From contig CAJWPG010000007.1 in assembly GCA_913045275.1 (NCBI GenBank), forward strand, positions 1 to 39,230: DNA of 39,230 bases. Reading direction: 5' to 3'. The notes beneath the pieces were generated by a model. The model did no database searches, had not been told where the DNA came from, and saw only the letters and a list, made by a program, of their open reading frames with translations. A program made the translations under genes and the position numbers. Position 1 is the stretch's first letter; every line of letters starts with the position of its first letter. Positions 10,903 to 35,725 of this stretch are shown piece by piece. The stretch comes from an uncultured Pelagibacteraceae bacterium (GTDB lineage Bacteria; Pseudomonadota; Alphaproteobacteria; Pelagibacterales; Pelagibacteraceae).

Positions 10903-10904
10903 TT

Positions 10905-12428: not shown

Positions 12429-12554
12429 ATATATTTTTAATATTAATAATGGCAAATTTTTATAGTTTTTTTTATATATATTTTTTAGATGTTTAAAAAA
12501 TTGACAAAAAAGTATAGAAATTCTGCAAATTAACTTTACAGAATTTATAATTAT
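12429..12554. promoter_or_regulatory. Divergent promoter region, soxBDAG / fhs
   Basis: 126 bp separate the two start codons. A perfect TTGACA hexamer lies at 12501-12506 on the plus strand, but the sequence 16-18 bases further on is a poor -10 box. An 8-bp perfect inverted repeat (12518-12525 with 12539-12546, 13-nt spacer) lies just before fhs. It could be an operator or an mRNA leader stem. I do not see the conserved pairing core of a glycine or THF riboswitch. Confidence 0.45.
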
Positions 12555-14234
12555 ATGTCCAAAAGTGATATTCAAATAGCAAGAGAAGCTAAAATGAAAC
12601 CTATTGTTGAAGTGTTGAACAAAATAAATGTTCCTGACAAACCTCAGGCTTTTAGTCCGATGGGACGCCACATTGCAAAAATAAATTTAGAATATTTAGA
12701 TACTATTAAAGATAAAAAAGATGGCAAACTTATATTGATAACTGCTATAACTCCTACTCCAGCAGGAGAAGGAAAAACAACTACATCTGTAGGATTAAGC
12801 GATGCATTAAGTAAAATTGGAAAAAAATCTATCGTATGTCTTCGTGAACCTAGTTTAGGTCCATCTTTTGGAATGAAAGGTGGTGCTGCAGGAGGAGGTT
12901 ATGCTCAAGTTGTACCAATGGAACAAATTAATTTACATTTCACTGGAGATTTTCACGCAATAACATCTGCTCATAATTTATTATCTGCATTAATCGATAA
13001 TCATATTTATTGGGGAAACAAATTGAATATAGACGTTAGAAGAGTTGTTTGGAAAAGAGTGATGGATATGAATGATAGAGCTCTAAGATCTATAAACATA
13101 AGTTTAGGAGGTGTTGCAAACGGTTATCCACGAGAAGACGGTTTTGATATTACTGTTGCTTCAGAAATAATGGCAATATTTTGCTTAGCTAACAACTTGA
13201 GAGACTTAGAAAAAAGAATAGGAAATATTACAGTTGCTTATACAAGAGATAAAAAACCAATTTTTGCAAAAGATTTGAAAGCTCAAGGTCCTATGTCTGT
13301 TTTATTAAAAGATGCAATTAGACCAAATGTAACTCAAACTTTAGAAAATAATCCAGCAATAATTCATGGTGGACCTTTTGCAAATATTGCTCATGGATGT
13401 AATTCAGTTATTGCAACAAAAGCAGGATTAAAACTTGCTGATTATGTTGTTACAGAAGCTGGGTTTGGTGCAGATTTAGGTGCTGAAAAATTCTTAGATA
13501 TAAAATGTAGAAAATCAAATTTAAAACCAAATTGTGTAGTTATAGTTGCAACAATTCGTGCTTTAAAAATGCATGGAGGTTTAGCTAAAAACGAATTAAA
13601 AAACGAAAATGTTGCAGCTTTAAAAAAGGGTTTTGTAAATTTACAAAGACACATTGAAAATGTTAAAAAATTTGGACTACCAGTTGCTGTAGCAGTTAAT
13701 CATTTTGTAGATGATACCGATAATGAAGTAAAAGAATTGATAAATGCTTGTAAAAAAATGGGAGTTAAAGCTAGTTTATGTATGCACTGGGCTAATGGAG
13801 GAGATGGGACAAAAGAATTAGCTTCTCATGTGGTAGAATTAATTGATAAAAATGAAGCTAATTTCAAGTTTTTATATAAAGACTCTACACCTTTATTTAA
13901 AAAAATAGAAACTGTAGCCAAAGAAATATATAGAGCAAGCGAAGTTATTGCTGATACAAAAGTTAGAGATCAATTAAAAAATTTTGAAGAACAAGGTTAC
14001 GAAAATCTACCAATATGCATTGCTAAAACACAGTATAGTTTTTCAACCGATCCAAATCTAAAGGGAGCTCCAAATGGGCATGTTTTGCCCATAAGAGAAG
14101 TTAGACTTTCTTCTGGAGCAGAATTTATTGTAGTTATATGCGGGGCAATCATGACTATGCCTGGTTTACCTCGTGTCCCCTCTGCCGACTCAATTAAATT
14201 AAATAAAAAAGGTGAAATTGAAGGATTATTTTAA
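12555..14234 (+). CDS. fhs: Formate-tetrahydrofolate ligase
   Basis: A 559-aa 10-formyl-THF synthetase (formate + ATP + THF to 10-formyl-THF), full family length. The P-loop [13 protein letters not shown] is at about 66-78. The family signatures [20 protein letters not shown] and [17 protein letters not shown] follow at about 97-135, and the C-terminus has [13 protein letters not shown]. Cytoplasmic. In methyl-oxidising marine bacteria it also runs in reverse to recover ATP from formyl-THF. It is divergent from soxBDAG, which supplies methylene-THF. It overlaps the convergent gshB by 9 bases with no terminator in between. Confidence 0.98.
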
Positions 14235-15164
14235 TTTTTCAGCTTCTTTCCAAAAATTTTTTGCTAAATTTATTCCACTTAAATCTTTATACTGTGGCAA
14301 ACCTGTTGGAGAAGTAACATTTATATCTCCTATTAAATAATTTGAAATTAAATCAATACCAGCAAAAAAAATATTTTTTTGCTTTAATTTTTTTGCAACA
14401 ATATTAGCTAAATGGTATTCTTTTTTAGTTAATTTAGTTTTAACTGCTGTTCCTCCCTGAGAAATATTAGATAAAATAGAACCTTTTTTTGGAACTCTTC
14501 TAATGGCTCCCTTAACATTTCCATTTAAAATAAAAATTCTTTTATCACCGTATTTTATCTTTGGAAGAAATTTTTGAGCCATTACATGACCAATTTTATT
14601 AATATATCTTTTAATTTTACCAGCATTAAAATTTCTATTTACAAATAAAATATTTTTTCCTGCATAACCATGTATAGGCTTAATAATTATTTTTTTATTT
14701 TTTTTTATAAAATTCAATATTACTTCTGTATCTTTTGTAAAAATAGTTGGAGGCATAAATTTAAAAAAATTAGCCGAATAAAATTTTTCTGAAATATTTC
14801 TTACTGCTATTGGATTATTTATTATTTTAACATTTTTAGATAAAAATTCTAAATACAAAGTAGAAGTTATATAATCCATATTAAATGGCGGATTTTGTCT
14901 TATTAATATGAATTTAGCTGTAGAAAGATTTAATTTTTTTTTTTTTACTATTTTATAATATTTTTTTTTGTTTTCGAAAAAAACAACCTCTTTAGCTTTT
15001 GCATAAACTTTACCTTGAACAAAACTTAAGTCTTTTGTTTGGTACCAAAATATTTTGTAAAGTTTTCTTTGTGCCTCTAAAGCTAGTAAAAATGTTGTAT
15101 CAGTTCTTGTATTTATAGAATTTAATGGATCTGCTTGAATTGCTATAATTTTTTTTTTTGACAT
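14226..15164 (-). CDS. gshB: Glutathione synthetase
   Basis: A 312-aa ATP-grasp enzyme adding glycine to gamma-glutamylcysteine. Landmarks: [19 protein letters not shown] at the N-terminus (family pattern 'D....i....DsT'), [14 protein letters not shown] (family 'R.dPPfD..Yi'), [14 protein letters not shown] (ATP-binding, near 160-173), [19 protein letters not shown] (ATP-grasp glycine loop) and [14 protein letters not shown] (metal binding, 'EiNvtSPtG'), where Asp stands in place of the usual Glu. It starts 6 bases after the gshA stop and is last in a four-gene minus-strand operon. Lysine content is extreme, as expected from the base composition. Confidence 0.95.
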
Positions 15165-15170
15165 ATTAAT

Positions 15171-16433
15171 TTATTTTAAGTCTTCCAGAGTTTCTTCTGC
15201 TTTGGTTTTGTTTTTTTTTATTATATTTTCTACATTTTTTAAAAATATTGTTTCATTATTTCCTTTAGAATTTAAATAATTACGTGATATTAAACCTTCT
15301 TTTGATAAATTTAAAAAAATTTTTCCCCAATATGAAATAGATTTGCCACCAATTTCTGTTTTTAATCCTTTAGACGGTGCTTCGAGGTAGGCATTTAAAA
15401 CATCATCTATTTTCCAGTTTTTTATCACATCCAAAGCTTCATTTAATTTTCCATATACTAAACCAGTAAAAAAAGCCGGACCTGCACAATCACAGTCCCA
15501 TTCGCATGCATCTAAAGATCTAATTTCTAAATAATTTTTTAATCTTACTTCTGTAAATATTGTGCTTAGATGAATTTCTAAATCTCTTAAAGTTGGTAAA
15601 TTGCCGTTCACTTCTTGAATTTTTGCGTTCATAAAATCTTTAAAAGTTTTTTTTTTGGAAAAAATATGTTGATCATCTTTAAGTATAAATAATAAAGGCA
15701 AGTTAATTACATAATCTGCGTATTTTTCAAAATCCATATTTTCTAAAAAAATTTTAGGTAAACCACCTCTAGAAGTTTTCTGCCATACTTTTGCTCTATA
15801 AGACAAATATCCACTTGGTTTGTTTTCTATAATTGGAGAATTTGCAAAAACTGCAATTGATAAAGGAGTTAAATAAGAGATTAATTTAAATTTTTTTTTA
15901 AAATCATCTTCAGACAAATAATCTAAATTAATTTGAGTTCCAGAAGTTTGATACATCATATTTAAACTAAGCTCTCCATCTTTAGGCATCTCAACTGTCA
16001 TTACTTTATACCTTTGTTTAGGGTTATTTGGGACATCATCAATATTTGAGAATGGATCATATCCCACAGACAAAGTTTTAAGGCCAATCTCTTTACAGAT
16101 TTTTTCTAATTGATTCTGAAAAGTGTATGACTCTGAACACACTTGATGAATATTTTCTAATTTATCTCCAGCTAGTTCAATTTGATTTCCTGGTTCAAGA
16201 CTTATTGATTTTCCGCCTAATTTAAGTCCTATTAGATTTTCATCTTCTTTAACCTCTTTCCAATTAAAATTCTTCTTTAATATTTCTAAAGTTTGTCTAA
16301 CTTTATTATAACTTGCTCTCTTATTTGATTTTTCTTCAAATAAAAATTTTTCGTTTTCAACTCCAATGAATAGATTTTTTTTTATACCCTTGTTAAAATG
16401 ATCTATAATATTTTTTTTTGATTTAATTTGCAC
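15171..16433 (-). CDS. gshA: Glutamate-cysteine ligase, plant/proteobacterial GCS2 type
   Basis: A 420-aa enzyme making gamma-glutamylcysteine. The motifs are those of the alphaproteobacterial/plant GshA group: IGVENEKFLF near 22-31, KLGGKSISLEPGNQIELAG near 70-88, MYQTSGTQINLDY near 160-172, PLSIAVFANSPIIENKPSGY near 190-210 and LEIRSLDACEWD near 300. It is a little shorter than typical members of about 450 aa, consistent with genome streamlining. It overlaps the amidotransferase-like gene by 11 bases and precedes gshB by 6, so gamma-Glu-Cys is handed on within one operon. Confidence 0.93.
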   Translation of the reverse strand: MQIKSKKNIIDHFNKGIKKNLFIGVENEKFLFEEKSNKRASYNKVRQTLEILKKNFNWKEVKEDENLIGLKLGGKSISLEPGNQIELAGDKLENIHQVCSESYTFQNQLEKICKEIGLKTLSVGYDPFSNIDDVPNNPKQRYKVMTVEMPKDGELSLNMMYQTSGTQINLDYLSEDDFKKKFKLISYLTPLSIAVFANSPIIENKPSGYLSYRAKVWQKTSRGGLPKIFLENMDFEKYADYVINLPLLFILKDDQHIFSKKKTFKDFMNAKIQEVNGNLPTLRDLEIHLSTIFTEVRLKNYLEIRSLDACEWDCDCAGPAFFTGLVYGKLNEALDVIKNWKIDDVLNAYLEAPSKGLKTEIGGKSISYWGKIFLNLSKEGLISRNYLNSKGNNETIFLKNVENIIKKNKTKAEETLEDLK

Positions 16434-17217
16434 TTATATAATCAAGCCAATTTTGCAACTCTCGCAATCTTGAACTTTTTTCTGTAATTTTATTTTCCTC
16501 TTCAATTAAATTTATATGTTCTTCTATCTCATTTTCATTAATAAAAACTTTTCTAACATTAATTAATCTATCTTTTCTAAATTTAATTAATCTAATCATT
16601 TTATCATAGGTTATTTCGGGATGATATTGGAGTCCCCATATTTCACTAGTACCTGTTTTAAAATTTAAACTTTGAACTTTATTTACTTTATTAGATGCTA
16701 AAATTGTTGAATCTTTGGGGGTTGTAGCAACTTCATCAAAATTAAAAGCTGGAGAATTAAAAATATTTTTTTTATTTTTATATAATGGAAATTTAATTCC
16801 ATTTTCGTTTACTGAAATATTTTGTGCAATTCCAATATGTGCACCATTATTAGATTTTTTTACTTCACCACCAGCCGCTGTTACAGCAACTTGCATTCCC
16901 CAGCATATTGCCAAAATACTTTTTATATTTTTAAAGCATTCTTTCATAAATTCAATTTGCCTTCTAATTTCAATTGTATCATTATAAATACTCAAAGCGC
17001 TTCCACCCCAAATCAGGCCATCATATTTTTTTATATTTTTAATAATTGAACTTATATTTGTATCAGAACTTGGATTAACAACATCTAAATCTAAACTGTT
17101 AGTAAAAAAGAATAAACTTTCTTTTAAACTTTCTGTATGAGTGGGGATTCCGTTTTTAGAAAAATTATTATTTTCTTCTTTTAGGTTTCCTTCGACTATT
17201 AATATTTTTTTATTCAT
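16423..17217 (-). CDS. Class I glutamine-amidotransferase-like protein
   Basis: A 264-aa stand-alone class I GATase-fold protein. The triad is intact: Cys105 in AICWGMQ and His199/Glu201 in QYHPE. GGSALSIYND (71-80) is the oxyanion/loop region and GAHIGIAQ the following strand. Unlike GuaA or PabA it has no visible synthetase partner; the C-terminal 50 residues are a charged helix (NENEIEEHINLIEEEN). Stand-alone relatives include gamma-glutamyl peptidases such as plant GGP1, which trims glutathione conjugates. Its position directly ahead of gshA and gshB makes a gamma-glutamyl substrate attractive, but that is inference. It starts 2 bases after the stop of the alcohol dehydrogenase gene. Confidence 0.8.
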   Translation of the reverse strand: MNKKILIVEGNLKEENNNFSKNGIPTHTESLKESLFFFTNSLDLDVVNPSSDTNISSIIKNIKKYDGLIWGGSALSIYNDTIEIRRQIEFMKECFKNIKSILAICWGMQVAVTAAGGEVKKSNNGAHIGIAQNISVNENGIKFPLYKNKKNIFNSPAFNFDEVATTPKDSTILASNKVNKVQSLNFKTGTSEIWGLQYHPEITYDKMIRLIKFRKDRLINVRKVFINENEIEEHINLIEEENKITEKSSRLRELQNWLDYISAN

Positions 17218-17219
17218 AA

Positions 17220-18380
17220 TTAAAATAATTCACCAGAAATACTATGTTTGTATAATGTTTTCATATCATCAACGGTCATTTGTTTTGGATTAGTTGCTGT
17301 AGAAGGATCTTCTACTGCCATTTTTGATAGTTGTTCTAAATTCATTTTATTCACTTCAATAACTTCTGAAAGTTTATGGGGAATTTTAAGTTCTTTTCTT
17401 AATTCTAAAATCCAATTTAAAAAACTATCAAAATTTTTATCTAAATTAAGATAATCACAAATAGAAACAATCCTACTTTCAATTAAATTTTTATTAAATG
17501 TTAAAACATATGGCATAAAAATTGCATTTGATAATCCATGATGAATATTAAATTGTGCGTTTACTGGATGACTTAAAGAATGAATAGCTCCTAAACCTTT
17601 CTGAAAAGCGGTAGAACCCATACTTGCTGCCGCCAAAAGATCTGCTCTTGCATTTAAGTCTTTTCCATTATTTACAGCTTTTAACAATGATTTTTTTATT
17701 AACTTCATCCCTTCAATTGCAATTCCATCTGCCATTGGATGAAAACCTGGAGCACAAAATGCCTCAAAATTATGAGCTAGAGCATCCATTCCGGTTGCTG
17801 CAGTCAGTCTTGGAGATAAATCAGCTGTCAAAACTGGATCTAAGATAACTATAGAAGGTAAAAACTTTGGATGAAAAATAATTTTTTTTACTCCTGTATG
17901 TTTATTAATTATAGCAGATGCTCTTCCAGTTTCAGATCCGGTGCCCGCCGTTGTAGGAACAGCTATTATTGGTGCAATATTCTTTTCATCAGCTCTTTTC
18001 CAATAATCTCCTATATCCTCAAAATCCCATATGGGTCTTTTCTGACCAGACATAAATGCAATAGCTTTTCCAACATCTAATCCGCTGCCGCCACCGAAAG
18101 CAATTACTCCATCACATTTATTTTTTTTAAAAACTTCTACTCCTTCACCTACATTTTCTCCTATTGGATTACCTGAAAAATTTGAAAAAATATTTATTTT
18201 ATTAAAATTTTTATTTAATTGAGAAACAATATTTTTAACAAATGGTAGATTTATAAGATCTTTATCAGTTACAAATAAAGGATTGATTATCTTTAGATTG
18301 TTGCAAGCTGAAGACAGATCCTTTACTCTATTCTCACCTACCCATAATGTTGTTGGATAATTCCAGTTATAATTAGTCAT
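17220..18380 (-). CDS. Iron-type (group III) alcohol dehydrogenase
   Basis: A 386-aa NAD(P)-dependent dehydrogenase of the Fe-ADH family. NAD-binding GGGSGLDVGKAIA at 96-108 and PTTAGTGSETGRASAI at 142-157 are typical. The metal ligands align with those of FucO: Asp199 and His203 (GMDALAH), His267 (GAIHSLSH) and His281 (IHHGLSN). The substrate is not predictable from sequence. It could oxidise a short alcohol or reduce an aldehyde, and because sulfonate genes follow to the right, a sulfonated alcohol is conceivable. It is the first gene of the operon leading to gshA and gshB, with 280 bp of mostly non-coding DNA upstream. Confidence 0.9.
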   Translation of the reverse strand: MTNYNWNYPTTLWVGENRVKDLSSACNNLKIINPLFVTDKDLINLPFVKNIVSQLNKNFNKINIFSNFSGNPIGENVGEGVEVFKKNKCDGVIAFGGGSGLDVGKAIAFMSGQKRPIWDFEDIGDYWKRADEKNIAPIIAVPTTAGTGSETGRASAIINKHTGVKKIIFHPKFLPSIVILDPVLTADLSPRLTAATGMDALAHNFEAFCAPGFHPMADGIAIEGMKLIKKSLLKAVNNGKDLNARADLLAAASMGSTAFQKGLGAIHSLSHPVNAQFNIHHGLSNAIFMPYVLTFNKNLIESRIVSICDYLNLDKNFDSFLNWILELRKELKIPHKLSEVIEVNKMNLEQLSKMAVEDPSTATNPKQMTVDDMKTLYKHSISGELF

Positions 18381-18662: not shown

Positions 18663-19976
18663 TTAAGTTTCGGATCTAGCTTTAATTCTTTCATAAGTTA
18701 GTCTAGTGTATATTCCAATATTTAATAAGGGTTGGGGAAGTAACCAATTAGGTTTTTTTCTTTCTTCTATTACTGAAATCTCATCTGTTTGTTGATTGAA
18801 GACCTTAAGTGCAATTTGTTCACCAAAAAATGTACCAACACCGATTCCTGATCCATTATAACAACCTGCGGCATATATATTCTTGTCTATTTTTTCAAAA
18901 ATTTGAGAACCGTTTCCGCTTCTACAAACAATACCTGACCAACTATTCTCAATTAAATTATCTGGTAAATTTGGAAATCTTTTTTTGATCCCTAGTGTAT
19001 GTAATTTAACTCTTTCTTTTAAATCTTCTTCGTTCATTAAGTTTGGATTTCTAACTTCCGCAGTATTTCTTATTAATATTCTTTTATCTTTCGTTAACCT
19101 TATAGTTGCTCCCATTGGTCTTATAGGTAAAACTCCCCACTCTTGAGGAGAACCTATAGAATGGAACTCTTTATCATTTAGTGGTCTTGTCATGCTTGCT
19201 GTTAAAGTAATTGGAAAACTATAATTTTTTCTAACATTTAATGATCCCAAAAATCCATTGGTACAAAAAATTATATTATTAGTAATTATTTTATTTTTTG
19301 AAAACTGACATTCAATTTTATTATTTATCTTTTTCCAGTTTAACAATTGTGTATTTTCATATAACTCGACATTTTCCGATAAAGTATCAACCATTGACCT
19401 TGCTAATTTTGCCGGGTTAAGAAGTATCCCTCCATTTGTATAAACAGCAATATTATAGAATGAAGTACCTAATTTTTTTTTCAATTCATCTTTGTATAAA
19501 ATTTTATTTTTAAAATTTAAATTTGTTAATAAATTAGCAAATGACTTTGCTCTATTTTTATCTTCTAATTTAGAAGAGGCAAAATATTTTCCACTATCAT
19601 TCCAATCACAATCTACTTGATATTCTTTGACATACCTTCTGACAGCTTTTATTCCTAAATCATAAATTTTAACTTTATTATTATAATTTTGAAGATCTTT
19701 ATTAGAAGTAAAACCATCATTTAAAGTTGTATCAACTAGATATCCAGAATTTCTACTGCTAGCGCCTTCTCCGGCTAATTGAGCATCAATTATTATTATT
19801 TTTTTACTACTATCAATTTCTGATAACTTTCTTGCGGCAGATAGGCCTGTATAACCAGCTCCTACTATTAAATAATCAGAGATTAAATCTTTATTTAAAA
19901 TTTTAATATTTATTCTTTTAGGAAGCTGATTAAGCCAACCACATCCATTATCGTTTACTAAATTAAATTTAGACAC
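18663..19976 (-). CDS. DadA/DAO-family FAD-dependent amine oxidoreductase (TauY-like candidate)
   Basis: A 437-aa D-amino-acid-oxidase-type flavoprotein. The dinucleotide motif is VGAGYTGLSAARKL (38-51), followed by DAQLAGEGASSRNSGYL (77-94 region), which is the GAS.RN.G motif of the DadA / gamma-glutamylputrescine oxidase group. The C-terminus has AAGCYNGSGIGVGTFFGE, the usual FAD-closing segment. It lies 25 bases downstream of xsc. A natural reading is oxidative deamination of an aminosulfonate to sulfoacetaldehyde, the reaction of taurine dehydrogenase (large subunit TauY is in this family), although no TauX-like small subunit is present. Family certain, substrate inferred from position. 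Confidence 0.8.
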   Translation of the reverse strand: MSKFNLVNDNGCGWLNQLPKRINIKILNKDLISDYLIVGAGYTGLSAARKLSEIDSSKKIIIIDAQLAGEGASSRNSGYLVDTTLNDGFTSNKDLQNYNNKVKIYDLGIKAVRRYVKEYQVDCDWNDSGKYFASSKLEDKNRAKSFANLLTNLNFKNKILYKDELKKKLGTSFYNIAVYTNGGILLNPAKLARSMVDTLSENVELYENTQLLNWKKINNKIECQFSKNKIITNNIIFCTNGFLGSLNVRKNYSFPITLTASMTRPLNDKEFHSIGSPQEWGVLPIRPMGATIRLTKDKRILIRNTAEVRNPNLMNEEDLKERVKLHTLGIKKRFPNLPDNLIENSWSGIVCRSGNGSQIFEKIDKNIYAAGCYNGSGIGVGTFFGEQIALKVFNQQTDEISVIEERKKPNWLLPQPLLNIGIYTRLTYERIKARSET

Positions 19977-20001
19977 AATTTAAAAAAAAACTAAATATAG
20001 T

Positions 20002-21786
20002 TTAATTTATAAGAGATTTTTGAGGTTTCATATCGCCTTTGTCTATACCGGCAACTTTGACTGGTTTTTTCATTGCATCTCTTCTGAATGGTTCACCTAG
20101 TTCTTGATTTAAAATAACCTCAATAAAAGTTGTTATTCCATTTTTTTGATCTTCACAGGATTGTTTAATTGCTTTTGTTGTTTCATCCATTGTTTTAACG
20201 GAAACACCTTTTAAACCACATGCTGTTGCAACTTTTGCATAACTTAATTCTGGATCAAGTTCTGTACCAACAAAATTGTCATCAAACCAAAGAATAGAGT
20301 TTCTTTTTTCTGCTCCCCATTGGTAGTTTCTAAAAATAACCATTGTAATTGCTGGCCAGTCTTCTCTTGCACAAGAACTCATTTCATTCATACTTATTCC
20401 AAATGCTCCATCTCCCGCAAACCCTATTACTGGTGTATCAGGACAACCAATTTTAGCTCCTAATATTGATGGAAATCCATATCCACAAGGACCAAATAGT
20501 CCTGGTGCTAAATATTTTCTTCCTTTTTCAAAAGTTGGATAAGCATTACCAATCGCACAATTATTTCCAATATCGCTTGAAATAATAACGTCATCTGGCA
20601 TTCCAGCTTGAATAGCTCTCCATGCTTGTCTTGGTGACATTCTATCTTTATCTCTTTCTCTTGCTTCTTTATTCCAAACTGTTCCCGGGTCATCATCTTC
20701 ATGGTCTAAGCTTGTTAAAGTTTGTAACCATGAAGATTTTGTTTGATGAATAAGATTTTTTCTATCTTCTCTTCCGCTATCATCCGCTTTAAGTGAAAGT
20801 TTTTCTAATAATTGTTGAGAGACCATTTTTGCATCACCACAAATACCAACTGTAACCTTTTTGGTTAATCCAATCCTATCAGGGTTCATATCTACTTGGA
20901 TAATAGTTGCATTTTTTGGCCAATAATCAATTCCATAGCCAGGCAAAGTTGAAAAAGGATTCAATCTTGTTCCAAGTGCTAAGACAACATCAGCTTTAGC
21001 AATTAATTCCATTGCTGCTTTTGATCCATTATAACCTAGAGGTCCTACAGCTAAAGGATGACTGCCTGGAAAACTGTCATTATGTTGATACCCATTACAT
21101 ACTGGAGCATCTAATTTTTCAGCAAGTTTTTTACAGTCTTCTATTGCATTACCAATAACAACCCCTGCTCCTGATAAAATCACAGGAAACTTTGCATCTG
21201 ATAAAATTTTGGCAGCTTGGTCTATGGCAGTTTTTCCTCCACCTTGTTTTTCAAATCTTACAATTGGTGGTATTTCTATATCTACAACTTGAGTCCAATA
21301 ATCTCTTGGTACGTTTATTTGTGCTGGCGCTGATCCTCTAAATGCTTTTTCTATAACCCTATTTAAAACTTCTGCCATTCTTGAAGGATCTCTTACTTCT
21401 TCTTGGTAACAAACCATATCTTTAAACAAATTCATTTGTTCTACTTCTTGGAAACCACCTTGGCCCATTGTTTTATTTGCAGCTTGAGGTGTTACTAAAA
21501 GTAAAGGTGTGTGATTCCAGTATGCTGTTTTAATTGGAGTAACTAGTCCTGTTATTCCAGGTCCGTTTTGAGCAATGACCATTGACATTTTTCCAGTTGC
21601 TCTTGTGTATCCATCGGCAATTAATCCACCATTTGTTTCGTGTGCAACATCCCAAAAAGTAATTCCTGCTTTTGGAAACAAATCTGAAATTGGCATAAAT
21701 GCAGAACCAATAATTCCAAAAGCATGTTCTATACCATGCGTTTGTAGAACTTTTATAAACGCTTCTTCTGTTGTCATTTTTGTCAT
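20002..21786 (-). CDS. xsc: Sulfoacetaldehyde acetyltransferase
   Basis: A 594-aa thiamine-diphosphate enzyme that splits sulfoacetaldehyde with phosphate into acetyl phosphate and sulfite. The N-terminal domain has FGIIGSAFMPISDLFPKAGI and the catalytic Glu in WDVAHETNGGLIADGY; the ThDP/Mg2+ site is GFAGDGAFGISMNEM near 455-470, and NYQWGAEKRNSILWFDDNF continues it (quoted here in part as QWGAEKRN). These are Xsc-specific rather than acetolactate synthase features: no FAD-type insert motif and no small subunit gene. Sulfite and acetyl phosphate are the products; no pta gene is in the window. It is divergent from suyAB and followed by the FAD oxidoreductase. Confidence 0.93.
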   Translation of the reverse strand: MTKMTTEEAFIKVLQTHGIEHAFGIIGSAFMPISDLFPKAGITFWDVAHETNGGLIADGYTRATGKMSMVIAQNGPGITGLVTPIKTAYWNHTPLLLVTPQAANKTMGQGGFQEVEQMNLFKDMVCYQEEVRDPSRMAEVLNRVIEKAFRGSAPAQINVPRDYWTQVVDIEIPPIVRFEKQGGGKTAIDQAAKILSDAKFPVILSGAGVVIGNAIEDCKKLAEKLDAPVCNGYQHNDSFPGSHPLAVGPLGYNGSKAAMELIAKADVVLALGTRLNPFSTLPGYGIDYWPKNATIIQVDMNPDRIGLTKKVTVGICGDAKMVSQQLLEKLSLKADDSGREDRKNLIHQTKSSWLQTLTSLDHEDDDPGTVWNKEARERDKDRMSPRQAWRAIQAGMPDDVIISSDIGNNCAIGNAYPTFEKGRKYLAPGLFGPCGYGFPSILGAKIGCPDTPVIGFAGDGAFGISMNEMSSCAREDWPAITMVIFRNYQWGAEKRNSILWFDDNFVGTELDPELSYAKVATACGLKGVSVKTMDETTKAIKQSCEDQKNGITTFIEVILNQELGEPFRRDAMKKPVKVAGIDKGDMKPQKSLIN

Positions 21787-21879
21787 AACAAGACCTTAAT
21801 AAATTTTATTTTTTTAATTGTCAAAGTGGACGATTCATATATAAATTGCTCAAAATTTCAAACAAAGAAATCGTCACTT
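21787..21879. promoter_or_regulatory. Divergent promoter region, xsc / suyAB
   Basis: 93 bp between the two sulfonate-lyase transcription units. A 7-bp inverted repeat (21829-21835 with 21869-21875, 33-nt spacer) flanks most of the suyA leader and ends 4 bases before the suyA ATG. It could be paired half-sites for a shared regulator or a leader stem. No regulator gene lies nearby. Confidence 0.4.
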
Positions 21880-22167
21880 ATGGCAAATACAGATATTATA
21901 ATTCATGATGAAAAAGACAACGTAGGTGTTGTTGTTATTGAAAAAATTATACCAAATCAAGATTGCAACTGTTGGGTTATGGAAAATGACAGTTCAGTAC
22001 AAATTCAATCAAAAAATGAAATCTCGTTGGGTCACAAAATAGCTATGATTGACTTCAAAGAAGGAGATACAATTATTAAATATGGCCATGATATTGGTAA
22101 AGTAGTTAAATCAATCAAAAAAGGTGAGCATGTTCATGTTCACAATGTAAAAACTAAGAAGTGGTAA
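21880..22167 (+). CDS. suyA: (2R)-sulfolactate sulfo-lyase, small subunit
   Basis: A 95-aa SAF-domain protein, the small subunit of SuyAB, which cleaves 3-sulfolactate to pyruvate and sulfite. The frame is open back to 21826, but I start at the ATG at 21880 ([19 protein letters not shown]), where the family's 'hdegDnVGVa' opening begins. The middle has [22 protein letters not shown] and [18 protein letters not shown], the UxaA/SAF core with the terminal 'G..VHvHN' motif. suyB follows after 4 bases. A relative of altronate dehydratase N-domains; pairing with the SuyB large subunit and the sulfonate context favours SuyA. Confidence 0.88.
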
Positions 22168-22171
22168 TTTT

Positions 22172-23338
22172 ATGGAAATCCCAAAAAGTTTTTTAGGTTA
22201 TAAAAGAGAAAACAGAAGAGTTGGAACTAGAAATCACGTAGTAATTCTTCCTGTTGATGACATTTCTAATGCTTGTGCAGAAGCAGTTGCAAATAATATA
22301 AAAGAAACTTTTGCTATACCTCATGCTTATGGAAGACTTCAATTTGGTGCCGACTTAGAATTATTTTTTGACACAATGATTGGAACAGGAAAAAATCCAA
22401 ATGTGGCCGCATGTATCGTTATTGGTATAGAACCAAAATGGACTAAAAAAATTGTTGATGCAATAGCAACTACAGGAAAACCTGTTGAAGGTTTTAGCAT
22501 TGAAGGAGCTGGCGATATTGAAACTATAATGAAAGCTTCTAGAAAAGCTCAAGAATTTTCACAGTGGGCTTCTGAAAAACAAAGAGAAGAATGTCCACTA
22601 AGTGATTTATGGATTTCTGTTAAATGTGGAGAGTCTGATACGACTTCGGGTATGGCCGCAAATCCAGCAGTTGGTAATTTAATGGATAAATTAGAACCTT
22701 TAGGAGTTCATCTTTGCTTTGGAGAAACATCTGAGTTGACTGGAGCTGAAAAAGTGTGTGCTACTAGAGGCGCCACTTCAGAAACTTCTGATAAATTTAT
22801 GAAAACTTGGAGTGATTACAACGATTTTATACTTAAAGAAGCTACTAATGACCTTTCTGAAAGCCAGCCAACAGCAGGTAATATTGCTGGTGGTCTTACT
22901 ACAATTGAAGAAAAAGCTTTTGGAAATTTTCAAAAAATTGGATCAAGAAAATTTATCGATGTATTAACTCCAGCTGAAGAGCCAAAAAAAGGTCCTGGAC
23001 TATATTTTATGGACACTTCTTCTGCAGCAGGAGAATGTTTAACTTTACAAGCTGCCGCTGGTTTTAATATTCATTTATTTCCAACTGGACAAGGTAATAT
23101 CATTGGAAATGCTATTGAACCTGTGGTGAAATTAACAGGTAACCCTAGTACTGCCATTAATATGAAAGAACATATTGATTTAGACGTTTCAAAAATCTTA
23201 AAAAGAGAAATGAATATGGATCAAGCGGGTGATGAATTAATAAAGACTACTATTCGCGCTGCTAATGGACGTTTAACATGTGCTGAAGTACTTGGTCATA
23301 AAGAATTTATTATGACAAAACTTTTCAGAAGTGCTTAA
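22172..23338 (+). CDS. suyB: (2R)-sulfolactate sulfo-lyase, large subunit
   Basis: A 388-aa protein of the altronate/galactarate dehydratase C-domain family. [20 protein letters not shown] at the start and [20 protein letters not shown] near 150-170 are the family's metal-site regions. [13 protein letters not shown] replaces the histidine-rich 'hGCGq' segment of sugar-acid dehydratases, which supports a sulfo-lyase rather than a dehydratase. C-terminal: [19 protein letters not shown] and [12 protein letters not shown]. Releases sulfite from 3-sulfolactate in the cytoplasm. It ends 1 base before the stop of the convergent TauE-type permease gene. Altronate dehydratase is the main alternative and is unlikely here. 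Confidence 0.88.
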
Positions 23339-23339
23339 A

Positions 23340-24422
23340 TTAAGAAGCTTTTTTAGCTTGTTTTATAAGATTTGAAAATACTTTTCTAATTATCGCCGCA
23401 CCTACTCCAAGTATAAGTGCCAAAGCAATTGAAAATATACCATAAAGAATTGGAACATTTATTGAGATTTCTTTAATAAATTTTGCAAATGGACTTAATG
23501 CTTTTACTCCATTGGTTTCAGATATAATTCTAATAGACTTTTCTGTAAAAAATGCATCATAAGCAATTGCAATACCAACTAGTAATAACAGAAATGCTAA
23601 AATAGCTTTAAATTGTGAGCTGTCAACTTTTTCACCAAGCTTCTGGCCTATCTGTACACCTAAAATAGAACCTAAAATTAATACCATAACTAACATAAGA
23701 TCAATTGAACCATAATGAAATGCATGAAGAACTGTAACTATGGCACTAATAAAAATTGTTACAAATAACGATGTTCCTGGAATTAATTTAGTTGGCATGC
23801 CTATAATGTAAATCATTGCGGGAACTAAAATAAAGGCACCTCCTACACCCATTATTGCAGCAAGGTATCCTACTAAAAGACCAATAATAATTGGTGTGAA
23901 TATGCTTTCGTACAATTTTGATTTTTTAAATCTCATTCTAAATGGAAGACCGTGTATCCAATAATGAGAATGAAGTTTGTTTTTTATTATTACTTTTTTT
24001 CTAGCCCTATCTATTTCGCTAACTCCTTGAACTAACATTATTGTTCCAATAATTGCTAAAATGTACATATAAGCTAATGAAATGACGATATTAATTTTTC
24101 CAATATCTTTAAAATAAGAAAAAGTAATAATTCCTAATATTGTTCCAGCAACACCTCCTACTACAATCATTAAACCCATTTTATAATCTAAAGTACCTTT
24201 TAGATAATGAGTTGTAGAACCAGATATAGATGTTCCTAAAATATTATTTGCTTCATTAGGAACTGCATAAGCAGGTGGAATACCTAAAAAAATTAAAAAT
24301 GGAGTCATTAAAAATCCACCACCAACGCCAAATAAACCTGAAAGAACTCCAACTACTAAGCTAAGAATAAAAATTAAAGGAATGTTTACATAAACTTCTG
24401 CTATTGGAAGGAAATATTCCAT
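23340..24422 (-). CDS. TauE/SafE-family permease, probable sulfite exporter
   Basis: A 360-aa membrane protein with about eight to nine hydrophobic segments arranged as two related halves. Each half opens with the family's glycine-rich signature: GVLSGLFGVGGGFLMTPFLI (20-39) and VGYLAAIMGVGGAFILVPAM (about 190-210). The cytoplasmic loop between the halves (130-175) is basic. Members move sulfite, sulfoacetate or other anions. With two sulfite-releasing lyases on the neighbouring strand and AprMBA upstream in the same direction, sulfite export is the simplest role, but direction and substrate are inferred. It is probably the last gene of the apr-side transcription unit. Confidence 0.85.
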   Translation of the reverse strand: MEYFLPIAEVYVNIPLIFILSLVVGVLSGLFGVGGGFLMTPFLIFLGIPPAYAVPNEANNILGTSISGSTTHYLKGTLDYKMGLMIVVGGVAGTILGIITFSYFKDIGKINIVISLAYMYILAIIGTIMLVQGVSEIDRARKKVIIKNKLHSHYWIHGLPFRMRFKKSKLYESIFTPIIIGLLVGYLAAIMGVGGAFILVPAMIYIIGMPTKLIPGTSLFVTIFISAIVTVLHAFHYGSIDLMLVMVLILGSILGVQIGQKLGEKVDSSQFKAILAFLLLLVGIAIAYDAFFTEKSIRIISETNGVKALSPFAKFIKEISINVPILYGIFSIALALILGVGAAIIRKVFSNLIKQAKKAS

Positions 24423-24465
24423 ATGTCGTAACTATTCTTCTAATATATTAATGTCAACTAATTGA

Positions 24466-24612
24466 TTAGATATTGGAAAATGTGCCAAATAAAATAACTA
24501 ACCAGTAAGTAGCTAAACCAAAATATATAGCTGTTTTGGTATTAACTATTGTTTGAAAATTTTGAAACTGCTTAAACAATGATTTTATATTTTTTTGAAA
24601 ATTATTAAGCAT
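24466..24612 (-). CDS. 48-aa single-span membrane protein
   Basis: The reverse strand has ATG at 24612-24610 and TAA at 24468-24466. Residues 1-27 are polar and basic/glutamine-rich (MLNNFQKNIKSLFKQF), and 28-46 form one hydrophobic helix (IYFGLATYWLVILFGTF). The positive-inside rule puts the N-terminus in the cytoplasm. It lies between the 116-aa gene (62 bp upstream) and the TauE-type permease (43 bp downstream), all on the same strand, so it is likely cotranscribed. It may be an accessory of the permease or of AprM; no family recognised. Confidence 0.5.
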   Translation of the reverse strand: MLNNFQKNIKSLFKQFQNFQTIVNTKTAIYFGLATYWLVILFGTFSNI

Positions 24613-24674
24613 ACATGGCAAGTACACCTGGATTATAAATTTTGCAAGAATTTTCTTAAAAAATTTAAAAAAAA

Positions 24675-25025
24675 TTAAAAGATAGTAGCTCCAAAAACTT
24701 TAACCAAACCATCCTCCTCACCCAAAACGAGTCGTCCTAGAAAGTCCCCTGGAAGTTTGGTGCTAGTTTGTTTATATAATATCGTGACGTAGAGTCCTCT
24801 CCTAAGGCAACCAAATGCTTTACAATTATCTGATAGAGTAGATATAAGCTCGTTACTTGCCCACTGCTTGCCTAGTTCAACTTCATTGGCGCCGTATAGC
24901 ATTTGAGAGGAAAAATCTTTAGTAAAACCTCCATAATCTTTAATATTTGAAGATTTCACCAAGTTAGACCATATTGGCTCTGCAATTTTGATTATCTCTT
25001 CATCGGACTTATCTATTATACCCAT
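24675..25025 (-). CDS. Conserved-looking 116-aa protein downstream of aprA
   Basis: A soluble 116-aa protein starting 17 bases after the aprA stop. N-terminal helices (DEEIIKIAEPIWSNLVKSSN) are followed by a beta-rich C-terminal half with CLRRGLYVTILYK and FLGRLVLGEEDGLVKVFGATIF (quoted in part), a helix-then-sheet order compatible with an NTF2/SnoaL-like fold. I do not recognise a named family. Within 24721-24900 I count about 43% G+C, well above most surrounding genes, and the codons include CTC, GTC, ACG, GGG and CGA, rare in this window. This suits a gene that travelled with aprA or one under different constraint. A role in APS reductase assembly or protection is a guess from position. 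Confidence 0.65.
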   Translation of the reverse strand: MGIIDKSDEEIIKIAEPIWSNLVKSSNIKDYGGFTKDFSSQMLYGANEVELGKQWASNELISTLSDNCKAFGCLRRGLYVTILYKQTSTKLPGDFLGRLVLGEEDGLVKVFGATIF

Positions 25026-25042
25026 TAACTCTGTGTTGTGAT

Positions 25043-26899
25043 TTAAGAAGCTTCCTTTTTCTCTTTTTCATCAACTATGTGATAGACGGGAGCTTTCTCC
25101 ATAGTGAATTTACCAGTCTTAGGGTCACGTCTAGATAAAGTCAAACAATGCCAATTTTCATCATCTAACTTCATATAATCTCCTCTATAATAATACCCTG
25201 GCCAACGTGTTTCTTGTCTAAAAAGCGTATGTTCAGTTACGCATTGAGATGTTAAAGTTCTATGTTTCAATTCCCATGCTCTCATAAGCTGATGATAATC
25301 TTCCGCACCAACATTTTCCAGATCTTCTTGTAACCAATCTAGAAGTTCCAACCCTCTTTTTAGAGTATTTTCATTGGTCATGTAATTATATGAAATGCCA
25401 CCTACATACTCATCCATTATTTTCTGTAGACGTTGAAGTCCTTGTATTGGAGATATATAACTTGGGGAAACAGTTCCTCCGGTAATCTCATTTCTTCCTA
25501 CAGTATAGTTTTCTAAAGGTTTAAATATGATTTCTTTAAAATCTTCACATTGATTATCGCTTACCTTGATATCTTTTGCTTTTTCTTCTTCAATATATTT
25601 AACAGCTGCTTTTGCTGCTAAACGTCCTTCGGTAAATGATCCTGATGAAAATTTATGGGCACTTCCACCTACAGTGTCACCTGCTCCAAATAAACCTTCT
25701 ACTGTTGTCATTCTATTATATCCCCAAAAATATTCGGGTGGAGCTATATCTTCAGGTCCGCTAACCCAAGCACCTGAGCAAGTTGCGTGAGAACCCATAA
25801 CATAAGGTTCAGATGTTGTTAGTTCTGGGTTTGTATATTTTGGATCAATATTTTGTGATGCCCAGACCACAGCTTGGCCAACTGTCATTCCTAGGAAATT
25901 TTCCCATCCCACTGTTTCTAAATGAGGGTCTTGAAATGCTTCTTTAGTAACCATATGAATTGGTCCGCCGCCTGCCATTGTTTCTTGTATAAAAGCATGA
26001 TTACGTAAACATGTAGGTGTTGGATGATGGTCGATATATTCACCAACTAATTCTTTGGTTTTTTCGTACCATTTTTTTTCATAATTTTCGCCATTTGCAT
26101 TTTGCGTGTAAGTTTTTAAATGAAGGAAATATGCGCCAACTGGACCATATCCATCTTTAAATCTACATAACACAATTCTGTTTTCCATTTGTGTCATTTT
26201 GGCCCCTACTGCAATTGGAAGAGCATAAGCTGAACCATTGCTCCAAGGAGCATACCACGTTCTTCCCATTCCTTCTCCTACAGCTCTAGGTTTGAAAATA
26301 TGAGATGCACCACCTGCAGCAACTATAACTGTCTTTGCTCTAAAAACATGATAATCACCAGTTCGCATATTAAATCCTACTGCACCTCCTACTCTATTTT
26401 CTTTTTCTTCATCCATAAGTAGATGGGTAATCATTATTCTATTGTAAATCTTATCAGCTGATTTTTTTGCTGCTTCTGCAACAATTGGTTTGTAACTTTC
26501 TCCGTGGATCATGATTTGCCATTTACCTTCACGTTGATAACGTCCTGTTTCCTTATTACGCATCATAGGTAAACCCCACTCTTCGAACATGTGAACAGCT
26601 GAATCTACGTGACGGGCCATATCATAACCCAAGTCTTCTCTAACCAAGCCCATTAAGTCATTTCGAGCATAACGTACATGATCTTCAGGCTGGTTTTCTC
26701 CCCATTGCATTCCCATATAACAATTTATCGCGTAAAGTCCTTGAGCAACCGCTCCACTTCTGTCTATATTTGCTTTTTCAACACAAATTATTTTTAAATC
26801 TCTACCCCAGTGTCTAGCTTCAAAAGCTGCACCAGTTCCAGCCATTCCTCCGCCTACTACCAAAACATCACAATCTTCTAATACTGTTTTTCTAGCCAT
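25043..26899 (-). CDS. aprA: Adenylylsulfate (APS) reductase alpha subunit
   Basis: A 618-aa FAD flavoprotein of the dissimilatory APS reductase, interconverting APS and AMP + sulfite. FAD-binding VLVVGGGMAGTGAAFEARHW lies at 13-32, ANIDRSGAVAQGLYAINCY follows, and AGDTVGGSAHKFSSGSFTEG closes the flavin site. The RNHAFIQETMAGGGPIHM segment lines the substrate channel. With AprM beside it and no DsrAB or QmoABC nearby, it most likely runs in the sulfite-oxidising direction, producing APS for ATP sulfurylase (not in this window). It starts on the last base of the aprB stop (TAATG), with a good AAAGGAG about 10 bases upstream (complement of 26910-26916). G+C is high for this window. Confidence 0.97.
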   Translation of the reverse strand: MARKTVLEDCDVLVVGGGMAGTGAAFEARHWGRDLKIICVEKANIDRSGAVAQGLYAINCYMGMQWGENQPEDHVRYARNDLMGLVREDLGYDMARHVDSAVHMFEEWGLPMMRNKETGRYQREGKWQIMIHGESYKPIVAEAAKKSADKIYNRIMITHLLMDEEKENRVGGAVGFNMRTGDYHVFRAKTVIVAAGGASHIFKPRAVGEGMGRTWYAPWSNGSAYALPIAVGAKMTQMENRIVLCRFKDGYGPVGAYFLHLKTYTQNANGENYEKKWYEKTKELVGEYIDHHPTPTCLRNHAFIQETMAGGGPIHMVTKEAFQDPHLETVGWENFLGMTVGQAVVWASQNIDPKYTNPELTTSEPYVMGSHATCSGAWVSGPEDIAPPEYFWGYNRMTTVEGLFGAGDTVGGSAHKFSSGSFTEGRLAAKAAVKYIEEEKAKDIKVSDNQCEDFKEIIFKPLENYTVGRNEITGGTVSPSYISPIQGLQRLQKIMDEYVGGISYNYMTNENTLKRGLELLDWLQEDLENVGAEDYHQLMRAWELKHRTLTSQCVTEHTLFRQETRWPGYYYRGDYMKLDDENWHCLTLSRRDPKTGKFTMEKAPVYHIVDEKEKKEAS

Positions 26900-27369
26900 T
26901 AATAATAAACTCCTTTTTTAAATGCACTTTTTTCTACTTTAGGTAATTCTTTCTTTGTATTTAAACCTTCTGGTTCTAAATAAAGAATTTGAGAGTTTAT
27001 TTCTCCTTGGTTTGGTTTGGCACCTTCGGCAAGTTTTGGAATAAATTTACCCCAAGGTTTTGTTGTAATGGGAGATACAAAATCTTTTTCAGTTCCGTTT
27101 CTAAATTTTATTTTCCAAGAGATTGTTCCTTTTTCTTCTTCTCTTCTAACTCTTACACTATGACCCATTGGAGCAAAATCAGCATAACCTCGAACATCAA
27201 TAGCATGGTTAGGACATGCTTTAACGCATGAATAACATTCCCAACAAAAATTTGGTTCTATATTTTTTGCCCGTCTAATTGTTTCATCTATATGCATAAT
27301 ATCGGAAGGGCAAATATCTACACAATGTCCACATCCATCACAACGTGTCATGTATACAAAAGTTGACAT
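26899..27369 (-). CDS. aprB: Adenylylsulfate reductase beta subunit
   Basis: The 156-aa iron-sulfur subunit that passes electrons between AprA and the membrane. Two [4Fe-4S] motifs are complete: Cys10, 13, 16 and 20 (CDGCGHCVDIC), and Cys42, 45, 48 and 52 (CWECYSCVKAC). GYADFAPMGHSVRVRREEEK then marks the AprB beta-sheet domain, and the C-terminal tail (about 115-156) would wrap round AprA as in known structures. It lies 29 bases after the aprM stop, with an AAAGGAAA-like ribosome site before the ATG, and overlaps aprA by one base. Confidence 0.97.
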   Translation of the reverse strand: MSTFVYMTRCDGCGHCVDICPSDIMHIDETIRRAKNIEPNFCWECYSCVKACPNHAIDVRGYADFAPMGHSVRVRREEEKGTISWKIKFRNGTEKDFVSPITTKPWGKFIPKLAEGAKPNQGEINSQILYLEPEGLNTKKELPKVEKSAFKKGVYY

Positions 27370-27398
27370 AATTTTATTTTTTTCCTTTCGATATCATT

Positions 27399-28199
27399 TT
27401 AATAATGTTTTGGCTCTTCTCTTTTTATACCTGAACCAAATTGCTCTGGTGCATCTGCCTCAGGTGGAAGATTGTCTCTGGATCCATCAGCTTCTGCTAA
27501 ATTTTTTTGTATTGCTGCTCCAGGTTTATAAAACATGTGTGCAAATTTTGACCAATACACTCCACCAAAAAGAACAAGGTTAGATACAATAAACAAAACC
27601 AAAAATACCTTATCATCCCATCTGTCATTTAAATTTAATGATTGTAAATACGACCAAACTAATCCAAATAAAGAAGTTGCAACAAGTGCAAGCACAAATA
27701 AATCTGCTTTAATAATTCTGTACCAAGGTTGAGCTTCTGAATAAACATCTACTCTTAAAAAAAACCAAAACCAAGATCCTCCTAAAACTGTCATTATAGC
27801 TCCTACGTGCCAAATAATAGGCCATGCTGAAGGAGTTTCTGAAGTTGGATTTGAATAACAAAAAATCATTATTACAGAAGTGATCCAAAATAATATAGTT
27901 CCATACATTCCTAAAAGATGAGCCGTTCTTCTTTTTCCCGCTCCTAATTCAGAAGTAGTTGCTATATCGCTAACAATTGTTTTTGAAATTACAGATATTT
28001 TCTCAGATGAACTTAAAGTTTTTTTAGCTGATAGTTTTGCTTTTTTTGCATTTTCAAAAAAATATTTAACATTCTTCTTGTGAATTATGTCCAATAAAGT
28101 TCCAACGACTACTAGTATTGCCATAACAATTACAAACCATTGCATATAGATTGGTGAAATAGTTTCTGACAATATCACAAATGGATTTATTAATAACAC
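27399..28199 (-). CDS. aprM: AprM, membrane partner of APS reductase
   Basis: A 266-aa integral membrane protein with about five spans (roughly 10-33, 85-108, 118-140, 155-175 and 185-205). It is the type found with aprBA in SAR11 and several sulfur oxidisers in place of QmoABC, presumably giving electrons to the quinone pool or respiratory chain. Histidines such as those in RTAHLLGMYG and WPIIWHVGAI sit near helix ends and could bind haem. The start codon is GTG at 28199: an in-frame TAA lies just upstream and a strong AGAAGGGAG (complement of 28210-28218) is about 10 bases before it. A later Met (residue 19) would remove most of the first helix. Confidence 0.85.
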   Translation of the reverse strand: MLLINPFVILSETISPIYMQWFVIVMAILVVVGTLLDIIHKKNVKYFFENAKKAKLSAKKTLSSSEKISVISKTIVSDIATTSELGAGKRRTAHLLGMYGTILFWITSVIMIFCYSNPTSETPSAWPIIWHVGAIMTVLGGSWFWFFLRVDVYSEAQPWYRIIKADLFVLALVATSLFGLVWSYLQSLNLNDRWDDKVFLVLFIVSNLVLFGGVYWSKFAHMFYKPGAAIQKNLAEADGSRDNLPPEADAPEQFGSGIKREEPKHY

Positions 28200-28296: not shown

Positions 28297-28698
28297 TTAT
28301 TTGGATTTTTTTATATAATGTTGCATCAAAGGAATAACTCCTCTTACACCACCTTTGGGATTCTCAACATCTCCTGCTCTTCTTGGAATCAAGTGAATAT
28401 GACAATGATTAATAGATTGACCGGCAACTTTTCCAGAATTGGACCCAATATTAAAACCTTTAATAGTTTGATCGTCTTGTTCTATTTTATTTTTGCTTAA
28501 CATAATAATTTTATTGCAAGCAACAAACTCATCATTTGATAGCTCAAAATAATTACTTACATGTCTTTTCGGAATAACTAATACGTGAAATTTTGATACA
28601 GGATAAGAATCAAAAGTTGAATAAGCTAGTTCATTTTCAAATAAATATTCTTTTTTAGTAGTATTACAAAACAAGCATGGATTATTAGGATCTCTCAT
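28297..28698 (-). CDS. HIT-family nucleotide hydrolase/transferase
   Basis: A 133-aa histidine-triad protein with an intact active site, HCHIHLIP: His98, His100 and His102. An N-terminal CLFC (residues 8-11) and the strand HVLVIPKRHVSNY are as in Hint/Fhit-type bacterial HIT proteins, which cleave or transfer nucleotides from dinucleoside polyphosphates or phosphoramidates. It overlaps the pabC stop by 4 bases, so it is the last member of the metC-MFS-pab chain. Its nearness to apr is intriguing, since HIT enzymes can act on adenylylsulfate, but the gene is structurally part of the folate-side operon. Confidence 0.92.
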   Translation of the reverse strand: MRDPNNPCLFCNTTKKEYLFENELAYSTFDSYPVSKFHVLVIPKRHVSNYFELSNDEFVACNKIIMLSKNKIEQDDQTIKGFNIGSNSGKVAGQSINHCHIHLIPRRAGDVENPKGGVRGVIPLMQHYIKKSK

Positions 28699-35548: not shown

Positions 35549-35725
35549 ATGATTATAGATTTTGAACCTGGAGATAAAGTTATCAATCCAGTTAATAAAA
35601 ACTGGGGAATTGGTCAAGTTCAATCTATTATTAATGAAAAAGTAACTGTCAATTTTGAAAATGTTGGTAAAAAAGTAATTAATTCAAAAAATATTGAATT
35701 AAAAAAATTTGAAACTAATGAATGA
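35549..35725 (+). CDS. DUF3553 family small protein
   Basis: 58 residues from ATG at 35549 to TGA at 35725. [25 protein letters not shown] and [13 protein letters not shown] match the compact beta-barrel DUF3553 pattern ('f.pG..V.hP..pdWGlGqVqS..g.+vTVnFe.aGKkvI'), reminiscent of CarD/KOW-like small barrels. Function unknown in the family. It overlaps the cysQ start by 8 bases, forming a short operon with it. Confidence 0.8.

Follow-up and report, generated by a model that had tools for sequence, protein, structure and literature searches.

How do SAR11 cells, which rank among the ocean's most numerous, dispose of the sulfite that would be released in the breakdown of 2,3-dihydroxypropane-1-sulfonate (DHPS) and related sulfonates, which are abundant plankton products? 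This question is raised by a 39,230-nucleotide stretch from an uncultured Pelagibacteraceae bacterium (contig CAJWPG010000007.1; "the window" hereafter means this whole stretch), in which two different C-S lyases, Xsc and SuyAB, are encoded beside a candidate sulfite exporter and the sulfite oxidation genes aprMBA. It is highly probable that this gene island (18663 to 28199) is a catabolic module for plankton C2 and C3 sulfonates, with the resulting sulfite exported or oxidized to adenosine 5'-phosphosulfate (APS). The island would tie plankton sulfonate breakdown to one sulfite outlet, and knowing the APS-consuming enzyme and the role of X116, a constant neighbor of aprA, would decide between ATP gain and mere sulfite disposal in SAR11.

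The window comes from a genome of 1,046,579 bases in 60 contigs that is 83% complete (G000). We compared it with 40 mapped stretches from relatives, of which 38 carry aprA (set A), and with 80 named loci selected from 404 relatives of X116 (set B). Family-wide profile searches covered 118 genomes, including 18 from the genus of the window, and a co-occurrence table was compiled by hand from these searches for 45 near-complete genomes (at least 90% complete; 28 with aprA and 17 without).

The island and its conservation

The genes of the island, their families, and their conserved linkage are evident from sequence. A minus-strand run comprises aprM, aprB, aprA, the X116 gene, and tauE; suyA and suyB lie on the plus strand; xsc and, after it, a DAO-family gene lie on the minus strand. 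The xsc gene diverges from suyA, and suyB ends one base before tauE. Two C-S lyases next to a candidate sulfite exporter and sulfite oxidation genes, as proposed in a preliminary description of this DNA, are borne out by hidden Markov model (HMM) families and the gene map, with Xsc, AprA, and AprB exceeding curated HMM cut-offs. All genes named in that description were present and correctly read, although it left unmentioned the gene that opens the interval, of a flavin adenine dinucleotide (FAD) amine-oxidase family (18663 to 19976), and did not name X116 between aprA and tauE.

The compact joining of these genes was real but not peculiar to one genome, as it represents a conserved SAR11 island. 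The order xsc/suyAB/X116/aprABM was kept in 35 of the 38 set A loci with aprA, and the lyase order was kept in all 67 set B loci (named Pelagibacterales) showing both lyases. Of the three set A exceptions, L051 is cut by a contig end, while L044 and L060 have the lyases apart from aprA. The aprA-aprB-aprM order was kept in 37 of 38 set A loci, with the remaining locus cut by a contig end, and tauE lay between suyB and aprA in 29/35 set A and 67/67 set B loci. Recurrence of this block throughout the family shows that its arrangement is not due to chance. All 80 set B loci were titled Pelagibacteraceae or Pelagibacterales, in agreement with the SAR11-type host that had been proposed. Among the near-complete genomes, xsc co-occurred with aprA (27/28 genomes with aprA versus 1/17 without); the aprA-containing genome without xsc, G109, has a contig that stops at suyB.

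This linkage bears on the published view for "Candidatus Pelagibacter ubique" (PMC5069961; this and the other papers are cited from partial text) that the main role of AprBA is to detoxify minor amounts of sulfite of varied origin, which would make its proximity to Xsc and SuyAB only loosely functional. In two genomes, G074 and G008, xsc-suyAB indeed lies 15 to 23 kb from aprA. However, linkage in 35/38 loci along with joint presence and absence argues for a shared role, and we consider detoxification as the main function to be rather unlikely.

The xsc gene (20002 to 21786, minus strand) encodes a sulfoacetaldehyde acetyltransferase that matched TIGR03457 with 967 bits (cut-off, 676). Identity to Xsc was 60 to 80% in 159 of 172 plasmid records and 76% to Xsc of Cereibacter sphaeroides. 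The predicted sulfolactate sulfo-lyase is encoded by suyA (small subunit; 21880 to 22167, plus strand) and suyB (large subunit; 22172 to 23338, plus strand; PF20629 and PF04295, with 281 bits to PF20629 of the GD_AH superfamily). The likely start of SuyA is the ATG at 21880, giving 95 residues, rather than the GTG at 21826 from which the open reading frame was listed; the SuyA reading frames of the relatives listed have 94 to 106 residues, matching this choice.

SuyB and SuyA were 62% and 48% identical, respectively, to a UxaA-family pair adjoining annotated hpsN and hpsO in Cupriavidus pinatubonensis, and SuyB was 66% identical to the protein in the SuyB position of Paracoccus versutus. The P. 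versutus gene has a short-chain dehydrogenase/reductase (SDR) gene, an alcohol dehydrogenase gene, and a HisD-family gene within a few kilobases and a putative sulfate exporter gene directly after it. Among the best 30 of 316 plasmid records, 13 matched SuyB at 58 to 67% identity, with the next at 38.5%, and both close records inspected (2 of the 13) sit beside hps-type genes. The single relative in the PDB at an E value of ≤0.001 was galactarate dehydratase. This separate group at 58 to 67% identity, the drop to 38.5%, and the hpsN/hpsO context indicate that SuyAB is more than a generic sugar-acid dehydratase. By sequence, SuyB is nearer to proteins of sulfolactate loci than to altronate- or galactarate-type dehydratases, and we assign it a putative R-sulfolactate activity.

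The candidate sulfite exporter is a TauE/SafE-family permease (23340 to 24422, minus strand; PF01925, 155 bits). Several genomes of the same genus also have a YeiH-type exporter gene after suyB, which is absent from the window.

AprA (25043 to 26899, minus strand; TIGR02061, 996 bits with a cut-off of 642) and AprB (26899 to 27369, minus strand; TIGR02060, 188 bits with a cut-off of 136) are the alpha and beta subunits of APS reductase. The predicted membrane anchor AprM (27399 to 28199, minus strand) had no Pfam match and only a subthreshold QmoC match (27 bits; cut-off, 300), and its place before aprB agrees with that of aprM in Apr lineage I. AprA residues N59, W215, R246, and H371 align to active-site residues N74, W234, R265, and H398 of Archaeoglobus fulgidus AprA. 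In alignment with A. fulgidus AprB, the loop within the first cysteines is missing from the window AprB, whose beta-sheet segment carries a two-residue acidic insertion. Lineage I Apr proteins of sulfur oxidizers are described as having aprM, an AprB without the long first-cysteine loop, and the acidic insertion, and "Ca. Pelagibacter ubique" AprBA itself is placed in this lineage (PMC2211403). AprBA is therefore of the sulfur-oxidizer type and not of the sulfate-reducer type that the preliminary description had set against its own proposal. Unlike Apr lineage I of sulfur oxidizers, the window aprMBA genes are linked to sulfonate lyases, and sulfate adenylyltransferase (Sat) was not found.

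Candidate enzymes feeding the lyases

Family knowledge suggests the following route, including which sulfonates this strain uses, the direction in which AprBA works, the export by TauE, and the electron path. DHPS would be converted to sulfolactate by HpsN-type dehydrogenases, encoded in relatives either elsewhere or close by, and SuyAB would cleave sulfolactate to pyruvate and sulfite. Xsc would convert sulfoacetaldehyde to acetyl phosphate and sulfite, and a stand-alone Pta whose gene lies outside the window would form acetyl-CoA from acetyl phosphate. Sulfite would exit via TauE or be oxidized with AMP by AprBA to APS, the electrons passing via AprM to the membrane quinone pool.

Several parts of this route had been described as missing. 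Pta, HpsN, a sulfolactate-dehydrogenase-like protein, and tripartite ATP-independent periplasmic (TRAP) transporters were found in relatives, while Sat was still not found. Each of the 45 near-complete genomes matched the PTA domain at least once, usually in a protein of ~760 residues. A second, stand-alone Pta of ~305 residues was present in 27 of 28 genomes with xsc (not in G105) but in only 2 of 17 without xsc (G044 and G109), and in G109 the contig ends before xsc. Stand-alone pta was scored as at least two PF01515 matches, with G095 and G099 dropped for a split fused protein and G068 and G096 added despite a single low match. Three PTA-domain matches were counted in the window genome; as for PF01515 and PF01230 generally, positions were available only among the matches listed, which here included one of the three.

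Similarly, xsc co-occurred with hpsN (26/28 versus 1/17). A second HisD-family protein is encoded beside the stand-alone Pta in genomes of the same genus (e.g., G083, G093, G003, G078, and G051), and its sequence identifies this second protein of the relatives as HpsN; the HpsN of genome G004 shared 57% identity with the annotated HpsN of C. pinatubonensis. HpsN was scored as present in all 18 same-genus genomes, including G105 with two partial matches only and G097 with one match beside pta.

The fullest set occurs in G004, of genus g4. An 18.2-kb stretch of this genome (L095) carries part of tauE, a HIT gene, suyAB, xsc, SDR genes, and genes for an Ldh_2 protein, Pta, a zinc alcohol dehydrogenase, HpsN, TRAP DctMQP, and a glucose-methanol-choline (GMC) oxidoreductase. 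The best NCBIfam match of the Ldh_2 protein was L-sulfolactate dehydrogenase, at 221 bits under a cut-off of 500. Three other g4 stretches (L188, L189, and L190) repeat the TRAP-HpsN-dehydrogenase-Pta set. In the nearest relative, G083, whose AprA is 97% identical to that of the window, TRAP and GMC genes lie ~7 to 12 kb from xsc, and HpsN is encoded beside Pta, away from the island. SAR11 HpsN, HpsO, and HpsP have been reported as active on DHPS, with the SAR11 hps genes described as not in one operon (PMC11131964); in contrast, the g4 stretches have hpsN and the zinc dehydrogenase gene adjacent, near suyAB and xsc. Ldh_2-type genes also accompany suyAB in G023 (L089) and G048 (L073), two genomes of genus g12 in which aprA is absent.

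DHPS catabolism by HpsN, HpsO, HpsP, and SuyAB is known from C. pinatubonensis (L178) and Roseobacteraceae (PMC11131964), and SuyAB is common to those systems and the window. However, the 17-kb stretch of C. pinatubonensis has no annotated aprBA or xsc, whereas in SAR11 SuyAB is combined with Xsc and AprMBA.

The fate of APS

Several observations weigh against the island as a sulfonate catabolic module. The genomes in the co-occurrence table are related, so the Fisher values are not independent tests. The g12 genomes G023 and G048 keep suyB, with G023 also keeping xsc, yet lack aprA, indicating that a lyase can exist without the APS branch; G100 (64% complete) carries aprA but neither xsc nor suyB. 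The sole HisD-family match in the window genome was of the HisD type, with 27% identity to HpsN, and no GMC match was found in this genome at 1e-60. A TauA-type binding protein was found in none of the 118 genomes, the window genome included, at an E value of ≤1e-40; TRAP transporters were not searched for in the window genome. Sat (PF01747) was not found in the window genome, in 17 of 18 same-genus genomes, or in 113 of 118 family genomes, leaving 5 with Sat. Likewise, CysN (E value of ≤1e-60) was detected in 0/18 same-genus genomes and was not found in 111 of 118, being present in 7. The preliminary description would have been refuted by a genome lacking both sat and every sulfonate uptake gene; the window genome agrees as to Sat and a TauA-type binding protein, but its nearest relative has a TRAP system ~10 kb from xsc. 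Together, the Sat and CysN searches mean that the sulfite branch stops at APS without a known sink in most genomes examined.

The preliminary description had regarded one way of disposing of sulfite as energy yielding. Such an ending via Sat gains no support: Sat was not found in 27 of the 28 near-complete genomes with aprA, and only one of these 28 had either Sat or CysN. CysN as a Sat substitute in the genus is rejected by the lack of a match in any of its 18 genomes. Substrate-level ATP by way of Sat cannot be claimed, but electrons passed from AprM to quinone could still yield energy. The Sat/CysN gap was already noted for "Ca. Pelagibacter ubique" by Smith et al. (2016), who favored detoxification (PMC5069961).

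One tentative explanation, which we hold as possible but doubtful, is Sat-independent sulfite oxidation, with APS resolved in an as yet undescribed reaction that is encoded in or near the island and has X116 or a linked HIT protein as a dedicated component. A non-Sat enzyme of the island, either of these two, would then split APS to sulfate and ADP or AMP in place of Sat, which we regard with similar doubt. APS-splitting enzymes of the HIT/GalT type are known, although our literature search did not retrieve them.

The linked HIT protein (28297 to 28698, minus strand; PF01230, 66 bits) is an optional companion of the island and a candidate APS-consuming enzyme. Its gene lies directly beyond aprM in 16/37 set A and 44/66 set B loci, and when only blocks covered on both sides are counted, HIT was present in 23/35 (set A) and 41/60 (set B). 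In genera g3 and g4, eight loci instead have a related HIT gene following suyB. In a tree that left out the second HIT genes of genera without aprA, the copies beyond aprM in genus g1 and the eight g3/g4 copies are set apart from the three rows for housekeeping HIT proteins. Since the g3/g4 copies follow suyB and pabABC lies outside their mapped neighborhood, HIT appears to track the sulfonate island and not the pab genes. At 1e-6, blastp with the cluster HIT matched none of the stretches from genera without aprA (L077 to L082 and L096, from seven genomes), nor did it match the short contig L083. Furthermore, two HIT genes occurred in 6/12 g4 genomes with aprA but in 0/8 without (P = 0.04, among related genomes).

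These findings, with Sat and CysN not found, are consistent with a role for HIT in replacing Sat. However, HIT was absent from 12/35 and 19/60 of the blocks covered on both sides, including that of the nearest relative G083, and cannot be the general solution; with about one-third of blocks lacking it, HIT as a general APS-splitting enzyme is weakened. Some genera without aprA (g5, g9, and g12) also have a second HIT gene. In addition, the window HIT gene overlaps pabC by 4 nucleotides, so this protein could serve folate synthesis.

X116, a 116-residue protein (24675 to 25025, minus strand), is encoded directly after aprA and adjoined aprA in all 38 aprA-selected loci of set A; its count in set B is no test, as X116 was the selection criterion for those loci. 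Its presence tracks aprA in near-complete genomes (27/28 with aprA, with G042 as the exception, versus 0/17 without), which makes X116 the more constant of the two candidates for the step that would replace Sat. X116 had no Pfam or NCBIfam match at an E value of ≤0.001 and no PDB sequence match at an E value of ≤1. The predicted structure had a predicted local distance difference test score of 74.5, with residues 29 to 45 below 50, and structure searches with this model gave weak scores (best Foldseek E value, 0.028; best Z score, 8.5, with a root-mean-square deviation of 3.1 over 92 aligned residues). Many of the matches were NTF2 or cystatin like. X116 thus has a possibly NTF2-like fold, at moderate model confidence, and carries no known catalytic signature, which argues against X116 itself splitting APS; any tie of X116 or HIT to APS is inference.

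APS could instead be turned by an APS kinase (CysC) into 3'-phosphoadenosine 5'-phosphosulfate (PAPS), and the island would then serve sulfation as well as disposal. In Table 3 of PMC5069961, cysC is given for those five of the seven strains that have aprA and for no others, but the running text of that paper names cysC as one of the genes that are missing. Escherichia coli CysC matched only itself and one Sat-adjoining locus among 195 sequences, mostly of island neighborhoods, with no genome-wide search made. The flux during growth on sulfonates would also probably be far above the need for PAPS, and we consider this fate of APS improbable.

In G002 (L033), a Sat gene, rare in SAR11 with five cases found, adjoins a CysC-like gene, on a contig different from that of aprA. 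The window encodes a CysQ-like bisphosphate nucleotidase (35709 to 36491, plus strand; 193 bits versus a cut-off of 229) ~7.5 kb from aprM.

The co-occurrence of the core genes, the enzymology of DHPS breakdown, and the absence of Sat have all been published. One study reports suyAB, xsc, and aprAB as core or near core in Pelagibacteraceae, with AprAB likely removing sulfite (PMC12636525), so the main idea of the preliminary description was already published: both the genes and the proposed disposal of sulfite by AprAB are the same as in the window. That study gives presence and selection, whereas gene order, X116, and the linked HIT protein come from our analysis. We did not find the island gene order, X116, or the fuller g4-type cluster in the literature searched, including the available portions of PMC12636525, PMC2211403, PMC11131964, and PMC5069961. 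The interest of the island thus lies in its open end at APS and in X116.

Genes flanking the island

Twenty-five nucleotides after xsc lies a gene for a DAO-family FAD oxidoreductase (18663 to 19976, minus strand; PF01266, 129 bits), a candidate amino-sulfonate oxidase. A DAO gene on the same strand and within 4 kb of xsc was found in 8 of 32 set A loci with enough flank, all in the window genus, and in the one set B locus with enough flank. The arrangement resembles a taurine-type cluster of C. sphaeroides (L181), in which genes for a TRAP transporter, an NTF2 protein, and a FAD oxidoreductase precede xsc, an exporter gene, and pta; the NTF2 and oxidoreductase genes are presumably those named tauX and tauY. 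Like that cluster, the window has a DAO-like gene beside an xsc whose product is the 76% identical Xsc described above; unlike it, the window neighborhood examined has no pta.

Three candidate assignments were rejected. The DAO protein is not TauY taurine dehydrogenase, with 20% identity and 55.8 bits compared to 175 bits to another DAO protein of the same C. sphaeroides locus. X116 has no sequence similarity to the C. sphaeroides NTF2 protein, which speaks against a TauX homologue. An iron alcohol dehydrogenase (17220 to 18380) scored 160 bits against a cut-off of 700 for sulfoacetaldehyde reductase SarD.

No RNA elements were found in the window at gathering score, nor any tRNA. Adjoining the iron alcohol dehydrogenase gene and the xsc-DAO pair, genes for glutathione synthase, a plant-type glutamate-cysteine ligase, and a class I amidotransferase form one run (14226 to 17217, minus strand). 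Farther out, sarcosine-oxidase-like genes, for a DAO protein and a large alpha subunit, lie beside a gene for formate-tetrahydrofolate ligase (7322 to 12671, minus strand, and 12555 to 14234, plus strand).

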